A DNA stretch of 64,000 bases from Sphingomonas sp. NFR15 (GTDB taxonomy: Bacteria > Pseudomonadota > Alphaproteobacteria > Sphingomonadales > Sphingomonadaceae), in the NCBI RefSeq assembly GCF_900103265.1, contig NZ_FMWX01000006.1, positions 1 through 64,000 on the forward strand, given 5' to 3'. Position numbers and translations under genes: made by a program. Each line of letters begins with the position of its first letter. Position 1 is the first letter of the stretch. A model generated the notes under the pieces. It ran no database searches. It was not told the origin of the DNA and was given only the letters and a program-made list of their open reading frames with translations. Shown one piece after another: positions 11,482 to 49,410 of this stretch.

Positions 11482-11552
11482 CCGTTCGTCCCGAGCGAAG
11501 TCGAGGGACGTACCCCAGGCGCAGGTGTCTCGACTTCGCTCGACACGAACGG
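11482..11552. repeat. Dispersed palindromic repeat, family A, long form
   Basis: An outer arm CCGTTCGTCCCGAGCGAAGT at the left faces ACTTCGCTCGACACGAACGG at the right, giving a long imperfect hairpin around a spacer of about 15 bases. It sits directly downstream of the NYN gene. Related copies occur at 15757-15835, 19771-19846 and 49339-49410, with short forms at 17046-17079 and inside mutS. Confidence 0.85.
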
Positions 11553-15756: not shown

Positions 15757-15835
15757 CCGTTCGTCCCGAGCGATGCCGAGGACGGGGCGCAACCGAGCGT
15801 CCAGCAGGTGTCTCGACTTCGCTCGACACGAACGG
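15757..15835. repeat. Dispersed palindromic repeat, family A, long form
   Basis: Arms CCGTTCGTCCCGAGCGA and TCTCGACTTCGCTCGACACG(AACGG) flank a diverged centre. The repeat lies between the divergent ABC transporter and queG genes. On the minus strand its end (…CGAACGG) runs directly into AGGTAGGT and the TTG start of the ATP-binding subunit, so two bases of the GGAGG site come from the repeat. Confidence 0.85.
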
Positions 15836-17045: not shown

Positions 17046-17079
17046 CCGTTCGTGCTGAGCGAAGTCGAAGGACGAACGG
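17046..17079. repeat. Dispersed palindromic repeat, family A, short form
   Basis: A 34-base element with perfect 8-base outer arms CCGTTCGT and ACGAACGG around a centre containing GCTGAGCGAAGTCGAAGG. It lies between the convergent ends of queG and the symporter gene. A second small hairpin follows at 17077-17094 (CGGCTC and GAGCCG arms). Together they could end transcription from both sides. Confidence 0.8.
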
Positions 17080-19770: not shown

Positions 19771-19846
19771 CCGTTCGTCCCGAGCGAAGTCGAGGGACAA
19801 CTCCCGCGCGTAACGCAAGGTGTCTCGACTCGCTCGACACGAACGG
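19771..19846. repeat. Dispersed palindromic repeat, family A, long form
   Basis: Arms CCGTTCGTCCCGAGCGAAGT and GTCTCGACTCGCTCGACACG(AACGG) lie between the convergent ends of the SH3-like protein gene and maeB. One base is missing in the right arm relative to the copy at 11482-11552. It may serve as a bidirectional terminator. Confidence 0.85.
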
Positions 19847-22403: not shown

Positions 22404-25037
22404 GTGACCGATCCCGTTTCCGCTCCCACGCCGATGATGGCGCAATATCTCGCCCTGAAGGCGCAGGCGCAGGACTGCCTGCTCTTCTATCGGATGGGCG
22501 ATTTCTTCGAGATGTTCTTCGAAGACGCGAAGATCGCCGCCGCCTGTCTCGACATCGCGCTCACCGCGCGTGGCGAGCATGGCGGCGCGGCGATCCCGAT
22601 GTGCGGCGTGCCGGTCCATTCGGCCGAAGGGTATCTCGCGCGGCTCATCAAGGCCGGCCACCGCGTCGCCATCGCCGACCAGACCGAAACCCCCGCCGAG
22701 GCGAAGAAGCGCGGCGGCTCCAAGGCTCTCGTCGCGCGCGGGATCATCCGCGTGGTAACGGCGGGTACGCTGACCGAGGAAGCCTTGCTCGATGCGCGCG
22801 CGGCCAATTGGTGCGTCGCGATCGGAGAGGCGGGCGGCGGCGTCGCGCTGGCCGCCGCGGATATTTCCACCGGCCGGTTCGAGCTGATCGAAACGAGCGC
22901 CGCGAGCCTGACCACCGAGCTCGCGCGACTGAACCCCGCCGAGACGATCGCCGCCGAGGACAGCGCTTTCGCCGAGGTCACCACCTCGCTGCGGCCGAAG
23001 CCCGGCTTCGACAGCGCGCGTGGCGAGGCCCGGCTGCGCGATCTCTACGGCGTCGCCACGCTCGATGGCTTCGGCCAGTTCAGCCGCGCGGCGCTCGCGG
23101 CTGCGGGCGGCCTGGTCGCGTATCTGGATCACAATGCCAAGGGTGCGCTACCGTTCCTGCGGCCGCCGGTGCTGCGCCTGAGCGCACAGGCGATGGCCAT
23201 CGACGCGGCGACGCGCGAGAGCCTCGAACTCACCGCCACGACATCGGGGTCGCGCAAGGGCAGTCTGCTCGACGCGGTCGATCGCACCGTGACGGGCGCG
23301 GGCGCGCGGGCGCTCGCCGCCGACATCGGCGCGCCGCTGGTGGACCGGGCCGCGATCGAGGCGCGGCTCGATCTCGTTCAGTTGCTGTGCGAAGATGGTG
23401 GCTTGCGCGAGTCGCTGCGCGCCACACTGCGCGCGCTCCCCGATATCGGCCGCGCACTGGGGCGGCTAGCGGCGGGACGCGGATCGCCGCGCGATCTCGG
23501 GCAGTTGCGCGACGGTCTGGATGGCGCATGGCGGCTCGGCGAGAAGCTGGAGGACCTCCTCTCCCCCGTTCGTCCTTCGACAGGCTCAGCACGAACGGGG
23601 ATGGAACTCCTCACCGATCTGGCCCCCCGGCTGCGCGGCCATGGCGCGCTGATCGACCTGCTCACCCGCGCGCTGGTGGCGTCACCGCCGATCGACGCTT
23701 CCGACGGCGGCTATATCGCGCCTGGCTATGACGCCGCGCTCGACGATCTGCGCGACGCCGGCGCCGGTGGGCGGCGCGCGATCGCGGCGCTGGAAGCGGA
23801 TTATCGTGCGCGTACCGGCATCGCCGCGCTGAAGATCAAGCATAACGGCGTCCTCGGCTATCATATCGAGGTCGCCGCGCGCGTGGCGGATGCGCTGATG
23901 GCGCCCGACAGCGGTTTCACCCACCGCCAGACGCTCGCGGGCGTCGTACGCTTCAACGCACCCGAACTACACGAGGTCGCGGTGAAAGTGTCGCAGGCCG
24001 GAGCGCACGCGCTCGCGGCGGAGGCGGCGCATCTCGAAGACCTAACGCATGCCGCGCTCGACCGGCGCGAGGCGATCGCCGCCACCGCCGATGCGCTTGC
24101 CCGGCTCGACGCCTCGGCCGGCTTGGCCGAGCGCGCGTGCGAGGGCGGCTGGGTGCGGCCGACGCTGGTCGATCATGCCTGTTTCGACGTCGAAGGCGGC
24201 CGTCATCCGGTGGTCGAGGATGCGCTGGCGAAGCGCGGCGAGCGCTTCGTCGCCAACGACTGCAAGCTGTCCGAAGACTCGCGATTGTGGCTCGTCACCG
24301 GCCCGAACATGGGCGGCAAATCGACCTTCCTGCGCCAGAACGCGCTCATCGCCGTGCTCGCCCAGGCCGGCAGCTACGTTCCCGCGAACGCGGCGACGCT
24401 CGGGCTGGTCGACCGATTGTTCAGCCGCGTCGGAGCATCGGACAATCTCGCGCGCGGCCGCTCGACCTTCATGGTCGAGATGGTCGAGACCGCCGCGATC
24501 CTGGCGCAAGCGACTCCGCGCAGCTTCGTCATCCTCGACGAAGTCGGACGGGGGACTTCGACCTATGACGGGCTCGCGATCGCCTGGGCGGTGGTCGAGG
24601 CGATCCACGAGGACAATCGCTGCCGCTGCCTGTTCGCGACGCACTACCACGAACTGACCCGCCTCGCCGAACGCTGCGAAGCGTTGAGCCTCCACCACGT
24701 CCGGGCGCGCGAGTGGAAGGGCGATCTGGTGCTGCTCCATGAGGTCAGCGAGGGGCCGGCGGATCGAAGCTACGGCCTCGCGGTCGCGCGGCTGGCGGGA
24801 TTGTCCCCCGCGACACTCGCGCGCGCCAAGGCCGTCCTGGCGAAGCTCGAGGCGGGCCGCGCAAAGACCGGCGGCATCGCGGCCGGACTCGACGACCTCC
24901 CGCTCTTCGCCGCCGCGCGTGAGGAGGAAACGCCGCCGGCCGATCCGGTGCGCGACACGCTTGCCGCGATCGATGTCGATGCGCTCACCCCGCGCGACGC
25001 GCTCGAGCAGCTCTACCGGCTGAAAGGGCTGCTATAG
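22404..25037 (+). CDS. mutS: DNA mismatch repair protein MutS, with a repeat-derived in-frame insert
   Basis: This 877-residue ATPase recognises mismatches and starts methyl-independent or MutL-dependent repair. The mismatch-binding motif near residue 30 is present (YRMGDFFEMFFEDA, containing FFE rather than the FYE of E. coli), as are Walker A GPNMGGKST at 633-641, the DEVGRGTSTYDG block and the ATHYHELT motif. The start is GTG 22404; no strong ribosome binding site is seen and ATG 22434 is an alternative. Residues 387-399 (SPVRPSTGSARTG) are encoded by a 37-base palindromic repeat (23564-23600) in the lever/core region. The frame stays open and all catalytic motifs follow, so the protein is probably functional. 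Confidence 0.95.
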   Translation: MTDPVSAPTPMMAQYLALKAQAQDCLLFYRMGDFFEMFFEDAKIAAACLDIALTARGEHGGAAIPMCGVPVHSAEGYLARLIKAGHRVAIADQTETPAEAKKRGGSKALVARGIIRVVTAGTLTEEALLDARAANWCVAIGEAGGGVALAAADISTGRFELIETSAASLTTELARLNPAETIAAEDSAFAEVTTSLRPKPGFDSARGEARLRDLYGVATLDGFGQFSRAALAAAGGLVAYLDHNAKGALPFLRPPVLRLSAQAMAIDAATRESLELTATTSGSRKGSLLDAVDRTVTGAGARALAADIGAPLVDRAAIEARLDLVQLLCEDGGLRESLRATLRALPDIGRALGRLAAGRGSPRDLGQLRDGLDGAWRLGEKLEDLLSPVRPSTGSARTGMELLTDLAPRLRGHGALIDLLTRALVASPPIDASDGGYIAPGYDAALDDLRDAGAGGRRAIAALEADYRARTGIAALKIKHNGVLGYHIEVAARVADALMAPDSGFTHRQTLAGVVRFNAPELHEVAVKVSQAGAHALAAEAAHLEDLTHAALDRREAIAATADALARLDASAGLAERACEGGWVRPTLVDHACFDVEGGRHPVVEDALAKRGERFVANDCKLSEDSRLWLVTGPNMGGKSTFLRQNALIAVLAQAGSYVPANAATLGLVDRLFSRVGASDNLARGRSTFMVEMVETAAILAQATPRSFVILDEVGRGTSTYDGLAIAWAVVEAIHEDNRCRCLFATHYHELTRLAERCEALSLHHVRAREWKGDLVLLHEVSEGPADRSYGLAVARLAGLSPATLARAKAVLAKLEAGRAKTGGIAAGLDDLPLFAAAREEETPPADPVRDTLAAIDVDALTPRDALEQLYRLKGLL
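23564..23600. repeat. Family A short palindrome inside mutS
   Basis: Perfect 10-base arms CCCCGTTCGT and ACGAACGGGG surround a 17-base centre (CCTTCGACAGGCTCAGC). The sequence matches the short family A repeat at 17046-17079 read on the other strand. It is fully inside the mutS coding region and in frame. Confidence 0.9.
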
Positions 25038-31568: not shown

Positions 31569-31593
31569 CCTCGGCGTCGCTCGGGACGAACGG
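31569..31593. repeat. Half copy of the family A repeat
   Basis: CCTCGGCGTCGCTCGGGACG followed by AACGG resembles one arm of the long family A repeat with two mismatches; the other arm is missing. It lies between the convergent ends of recF and aguA. Confidence 0.65.
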
Positions 31594-49338: not shown

Positions 49339-49410
49339 CCCGTTCGTCCGGAGCGAAGTGGAGGGATGGCGCCGTGCGCAGGTGCCTCGACTTCGCTCGG
49401 CACGAACGGG
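49339..49410. repeat. Dispersed palindromic repeat, family A, long form
   Basis: Arms CCCGTTCGTCCGGAGCGAAG and GACTTCGCTCGGCACGAACG(GG) lie between the convergent ends of topA and panC. The sequence is somewhat diverged from the other copies. It fills about half of the gap. Confidence 0.85.

Follow-up and report, generated by a model that had tools for sequence, protein, structure and literature searches.

The mutS gene of Sphingomonas sp. NFR15 and its palindromic insert

The window analyzed here, a 64,000-nucleotide stretch of the Sphingomonas sp. NFR15 genome (G000), encodes an intact mutS gene (Table 1). The predicted protein contains the Pfam domains MutS_I, II, III, IV and V, all above the cut-off, and its AlphaFold model (mean pLDDT 87.1) aligns with E. 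coli MutS (3zlj_B) over 736 residues, with a Z score of 42.8 and an rmsd of 2.5, so that both the domain composition and the fold identify it as a MutS. A 37-bp palindrome, CCCCGTTCGTCCTTCGACAGGCTCAGCACGAACGGGG, lies wholly within this gene and corresponds to codons 387-399, exactly as an earlier note on this DNA had stated; the location in the lever/core region ahead of the ATPase, given in the same note, agrees with the domain boundaries (MutS_III, residues 269-575; MutS_V, 629-816). It is the sole palindrome of its type in the window (0.00 in shuffled sequence) and folds as single-stranded DNA with -12.3 kcal/mol (z -3.66). The RNA fold of its 141-nt surroundings was not better than those of shuffled sequences (z -0.10).

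The respective loop, measured from the DLGQLRDGL motif to the next conserved helix in 166 MutS rows, in which some species are perhaps represented twice, comprises 49 residues in 132 of these rows and 60 residues in NFR15, a net gain of 33 nt. Loops of repeat-free relatives also vary in length (46-55 residues) and lack the extra residues, as in G198 (L260), where a short variable turn reads RPPALL, and there is no family-wide conservation of the segment. The mutS palindrome is a true in-frame insert and a member of a dispersed repeat family, in line with the earlier view of an insertion that the reading frame tolerated. The local gain or loss of bases that was thought necessary to balance a length of 37 is not required: the insertion adds 33 nt net, and the palindrome includes adjoining bases. 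Given the loop lengths of the aligned relatives and the match to a dispersed family, the idea that these are ordinary MutS residues, palindromic by chance, is refuted for all practical purposes.

In the model, the insert forms a coil (residues 387-397) between the helices 362-386 and 398-410, and its site aligns opposite approximately residues 387-391 of E. coli MutS. The mean pLDDT of residues 391-400 is 58; the repeat-bearing loop is predicted to be a low-confidence turn that joins two core helices.

Table 1. Positions of mutS, the palindromic insert and REP sequences in the window, and of the REP-bearing mtaB gene
Feature	Position	Strand	Remarks
mutS	22404..25037	+	ORF, 877 codons, 877 aa; GTG start, ATG at 22434 alternative
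37-bp REP palindrome	23564..23600	.	two 10-bp arms around one hairpin body; in-frame residues 387-399
Net 33-nt (11-codon) insert	23566..23598	+	relative to repeat-free relatives; edges not fixable to the base
CTCCTC, left direct-repeat copy	23556..23561	+	6 bp, 51 nt from right copy
CTCCTC, right direct-repeat copy	23607..23612	+	seen in the sequence; flanks palindrome
Head-to-head REP pair (REPIN-like), 71 bp	11482..11552	.	intergenic
REP pair with 2 mismatches in its left half	15758..15834	.	intergenic
REP with one hairpin carrying both outer arms	17047..17078	.	intergenic; form like the mutS copy
REP half-unit	19772..19793	-	intergenic
REP half-unit, 2 mismatches	31571..31592	+	intergenic
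REP pair	49341..49408	.	intergenic
mtaB, 472-aa ORF	C15:281610-283025 (L177:1610-3025)		own genome; holds in-frame REP pair

The REP family of the NFR15 genome

The unit of the repeat family consists of CCGTTC followed by the hairpin GTGCTGAGC..GTCGAAGCAC. The window contains 8 copies of the 9-mer CCCGTTCGT, compared with 0.92 expected. Across the NFR15 genome, the core CTTCGACARGCTCAG is found in 99 places (at most 1 mismatch; 2 for the backwards pattern) and a sister core, TCGACTTCGCTCNNNACGAACG, yields 280 matches (0 in the control), the abundance of a short palindromic unit that is typical of REPs. Among the 61 genomes searched, the two cores were detected in 51 and 23, respectively. By inspection of the NFR15 unit, no GTAG or CGTC end motif was seen next to the hairpin; such motifs mark super-families in PMC3733652, with a CCA-like tail in the CGTC one. 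The outer flanks of the NFR15 REPs are G-rich.

The distribution of the half-units was assessed by a plain mismatch scan of 759 kb (695 kb of the NFR15 genome plus the window) that contain 619 genes called by a simple codon-usage model, with 87% of the sequence coding. At up to 2 mismatches, 165 half-units were identified (reversed-sequence control, 0), of which 160 are intergenic, 2 overlap gene edges and 3 lie wholly within genes; the family is therefore mainly extragenic, as expected of REPs, in a sequence that is mostly coding. The nine further half-units in the window conform to this pattern, with none inside or overlapping predicted genes, and the earlier note had rightly placed the same family in intergenic gaps. 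Of the three intragenic half-units, one is the mutS copy and the other two form a single pair in another gene, which encodes MtaB, the tRNA t6A37 methylthiotransferase (TIGR01579, 395 bits vs a cut-off of 357). This pair is located near the C-terminus, after the radical SAM core, reads VRAEPVEA...PSTSSGRT and has its reading frame in common with the inserts of mutS. Thus, the mutS loop is a rare, though not the sole, exception to the strong exclusion of the REP family from genes. Allowing 3 mismatches added 11 matches, 5 intergenic and 6 inside genes; the latter 6 have neither a second arm nor a partner and were set aside as chance matches although the reversed control was again 0.

At up to 3 mismatches, 148 of the 176 units are arranged head to head in 74 pairs, with a span of 64-89 bp in 72 of them, and all 18 pairs that were folded form hairpins. 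This is the arrangement of REPINs, that is, inverted REPs around a spacer that fold as one hairpin. Units in which one hairpin carries both outer arms are rare: 6 of the 176 by rule, 4 of them clear cases, including the mutS copy and the intergenic copy of the same form in the window (Table 1). A search with PF01797, which covers the Y1 transposases and not other transposase families, detected none in the NFR15 genome (5 of the 14 control genomes were positive), so that a RAYT in the genome, as in REPIN systems, was not found by this search. The genome contains hundreds of REP copies and yet no PF01797 transposase.

Recurrence of REP insertions in one MutS loop

A 160-aa MutS stretch was compared with 295 genomes of the same genus, yielding a match in 284 and none in 11; for most of these 284 genomes, the result is the net length of the stretch, taken from match coordinates that were read by eye. 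A REP is present in the loop in 6 of the 284, namely NFR15 and five others, with net gains of 81 nt in G673, 93 nt in G668, 99 nt in G170, 105 nt in G140 and 114 nt in G696. The DNA of the five other carriers contains REP pairs of the same family as the NFR15 repeat, and the inserts are read in a common frame, as (P)VR or AR followed by [AP]EPVE. The window copy does not qualify as a REPIN doublet, having one hairpin body and two outer arms, and is read as a remnant. The insert of G696 includes additional repeat sequence beside the pair. In G170 (L149), the second half of the pair is degenerate and contains CCCCGGATCAAGTCCGGGG, a nested palindrome that looks like a different repeat family.

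Across 203 mutS rows, among them partial genes and genes from other genera, the loop of the six carriers is the only place with a REP at up to 2 mismatches; a 3-mismatch match at codon 840 of the L049 mutS was taken as chance. We also examined 399 kb of sequence around mutS in 20 relatives, with 311 predicted genes; five of these relatives had been picked as carriers. Of the 30 half-units detected there with no more than 2 mismatches, 20 are intergenic, 9 belong to the mutS genes of the five carriers and 1 is located in an ORF of G673 (reversed control, 0). The last-mentioned ORF (L278, 16976-18241, 422 aa) has the half-unit close to its end, at residue 401, and its last ~20 residues pass into it (PFVPSEVEG).

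Several other candidates were rejected, namely G253 because of a run of N, G004 and G220 because of contig ends, and G161 (L150) and G033 (L002), where 12 nt (4 residues) are gained beside the REP site. The four-residue gain in G161 resembles a tandem duplication of RLGE. Also rejected was a clade with a gain of 18 nt and no REP letters. The loops of L023, L024, L206, L207, L246, L248, L249 and L250 are six residues longer without REP letters, and the carriers of REP pairs G668 and G696 are found among these in the tree.

The family-wide search matched 390 of the 397 genomes, and coordinates were read for the ~155 matches listed plus 57 genomes. The loop of G290 (L221), a member of the family from another genus, has gained 45 nt and contains a palindrome of a different kind. 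This palindrome, CCTCCCC..GGGGAGGGGGACCG..CGGTGGAGGGG, is present in two copies in one mutS, at codon 147 and, in the loop that hosts the REPs, at codon 401. These are its only two matches in 110,630 bases, with 2 also in the reversed control.

Number of independent acquisitions

A quick tree with SH-aLRT support was constructed from 127 MutS rows with the loop removed. Forcing the six carriers into one clade lowers lnL by 881 (p-AU 8e-66), and a single common origin of the six alleles is rejected. G140 is the sister of the repeat-free G007 (L028; SH-aLRT 100), G170 groups with the repeat-free L010 and L013 (SH-aLRT 97), and the window, G673 and the repeat-free G198 form a clade (SH-aLRT 94). 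Inside that clade, the quick tree pairs G673 with G198 (SH-aLRT 96), as do the site counts (61 vs 31 and 26); the AU test does not reject a tree in which the window and G673 are sisters (p 0.73), which does not by itself demonstrate sisterhood. The quick tree does not pair G668 with G696; a tree that unites them is not rejected either (p 0.83), and sites near the loop favor their union (10 vs 3 and 2) where the counts for the whole gene are 44 vs 63 and 21.

The quick tree requires at least 6 changes, and 4 suffice under the two unrejected groupings. Given that neither the union of G668 with G696 nor that of the window with G673 is rejected, at least four separate gains of a REP in the MutS loop is the least number that can be defended. 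One gain for the window and G673 is favored here because both junctions of the insert are common to them (see below). Such a single gain entails no loss if the two are sisters; otherwise, loss or conversion in G198 would be required.

Selective constraint on the carrier proteins

Outside the loop, dN/dS values are 0.044-0.190 for pairs that include a carrier and 0.081-0.218 for pairs that do not, and the two ranges overlap within each group: 0.077-0.081 for the window, G673 and G198 compared with L261; 0.080 and 0.099 for G170 compared with L010 and L013 (0.100 between the latter two); 0.082-0.107 in the G668/G696 group; and 0.105-0.218 in the G140 group. These values indicate that carrier MutS is subject to purifying selection similar to that in its repeat-free sisters. 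End branches of the carriers show no consistent lengthening overall: 0.029 for the window and 0.026 for G673 vs 0.021 for the repeat-free G198, 0.077 vs 0.062 for G140, and 0.063 vs 0.062 and 0.090 for G170; those of G668 (0.073) and G696 (0.030) exceed the 0.005-0.021 of five repeat-free relatives. We conclude from these comparisons that the insert is probably tolerated and that MutS function is unlikely to have been lost. The mutS repeat is most likely a tolerated selfish insertion.

Origin of the window copy and alternative scenarios

The alleles of the window and of G673 (L219) share the junctions LSP..RTGMELL, and among the carriers the right flank GMELL is common only to these two. The G673 allele reads CCC GCT CGT, then 16 codons ending in GCA CGT, and then CCT TCG ACA ... 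CGA ACG GGG ATG; without these 16 codons, it reproduces the window arrangement codon for codon. Given this match, a 48-nt deletion between CGT trinucleotides would be the simplest origin of the window allele, and the most plausible reading of the window copy is that of a REP pair that collapsed through such a deletion. Thus, of the history suggested in the earlier note, the insertion itself holds, and what entered was probably a longer REP pair, of which the window copy is the remnant, not a 37-bp unit inserted as such.

The scenario that we favor, with a probability of roughly 0.8, starts with a REPIN-like, presumably non-autonomous REP pair that would have entered the turn in the MutS core domain, in frame, in an ancestor shared by G673 and the NFR15 species. 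The 48-nt deletion between two CGT trinucleotides would then have removed one hairpin together with the spacer in the lineage of the window, with the outcome that both outer arms came to flank a single hairpin, the present 33-nt insert. The turn would accommodate the extra hydrophilic residues so that MutS keeps working, and selection would purge most insertions elsewhere in genes; tolerance at this turn combined with purging elsewhere could explain why at least four lineages within the genus captured REP pairs separately in the same turn. What counts against this explanation is the placement of G198, the 6 changes on the quick tree and the lack of a PF01797 transposase in G000.

Alternatively, the window copy could stem from the entry of a single unit of 33 nt that was independent of the G673 pair, with the common flanks being part of the element or a coincidence. 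The site counts that make the repeat-free G198 the sister of G673 fit this scenario, as does the recurrence of LSP-like left flanks in unrelated carriers, so that this flank can be the element's own; moreover, single units with both arms do exist, with 4 clear cases in 759 kb including the mutS copy and 6 exact sites genome-wide. The rarity of such units and the restriction of the GMELL flank to the window and G673 nevertheless make single-unit entry unlikely. The recurrence itself could reflect a DNA-level hotspot for REP movement, regardless of protein tolerance, given that the insertions begin at, or a few codons from, one place and that the outer flanks of NFR15 REPs are G-rich. Because the DNA of the loop differs between clades, G290 from another genus carries a different palindrome there and repeat-free loops vary in length as well, we consider a hotspot of this kind rather improbable.

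A role for selection has to be weighed as well, in the form of a REP that alters mismatch repair from within the MutS core and creates a mutator or conditional mutator, along the lines of a speculation in PMC3733652. Repair genes are prominent REP targets in that work, one loop of one repair gene acquired REPs repeatedly, and mutS and mtaB are the only genes in the 759 kb that wholly contain REPs. The dN/dS values of the carriers are, however, as low as those of their sisters, the end branches are not consistently longer, G668 and G696 notwithstanding, and the single loop position is explained equally well by tolerance, so that selected insertion appears very unlikely. Going further, one could imagine the loop as a recurrent docking site kept by selection, where REP pairs tune mismatch repair and hairpin-driven shrinkage from 81 to 33 nt resets it, a slow mutation-rate switch; we regard this as a long shot. 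Tolerated insertion of REP pairs remains our preferred reading.

Relationship to known palindromic elements

The Rickettsia palindromic elements (RPE) of Ogata et al. in 2000 and 2002 are reportedly the classic precedent for such inserts. Like RPE, which are described in PMC10969869 as palindromic elements lying in frame within protein genes and forming part of the reading frame, the mutS repeat is an in-frame insert in an otherwise conserved protein and is absent from relatives. Unlike RPE, which are ~150 bp long and common in genes, the NFR15 family is nearly excluded from genes, with 3 of the 165 half-units in two genes. REPINs are characterized in PMC3116915 as inverted REP doublets with a spacer that fold as one hairpin, singlets being doublet remnants. 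The predominance of pairs of uniform span in NFR15 and the presence of a pair in five of the six mutS carriers fit this description; the lack of a RAYT-type Y1 transposase in G000, as judged by PF01797, does not.

REPs located in frame inside the repair genes uvrA, recB, polA and dnaE2 have been reported (Di Nocera et al. 2013, PMC3733652), along with REP-tagged tRNA pseudouridine synthase genes; in many species, the only tagged genes are those for repair or tRNA modification, and the recB genes of two Xanthomonas species carry a REP at about the same site. These elements, as described there, resemble the NFR15 family in being short palindromes, mostly intergenic and in frame in repair genes, and the combination of a repair gene (mutS) with a tRNA modification gene (mtaB) in NFR15 parallels that list. 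The difference is that the NFR15 family has reached one loop in four or more separate lineages within one genus. The main text of PMC3733652 does not contain the term mutS, and our literature search, judged by title, found no publication dealing with this repeat core or describing REPs in mutS. REPs inside repair genes are already known from PMC3733652; the new, testable element is that a single MutS loop has been used repeatedly.

PMC3733652 raised the question of whether the REPs of repair genes are there by chance or help to create mutators. The mutS loop bears on it as a set of natural replicates, with six alleles, at least four acquisitions as counted here, and repeat-free relatives. It also shows that one protein loop can be remodelled repeatedly by selfish DNA and provides candidate states before and after the arrival and collapse of a REP pair at one site (81 nt, 33 nt and none). 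Given that the two CTCCTC copies are positioned 51 nt apart around the mutS palindrome, slippage between them could excise the palindrome in frame.
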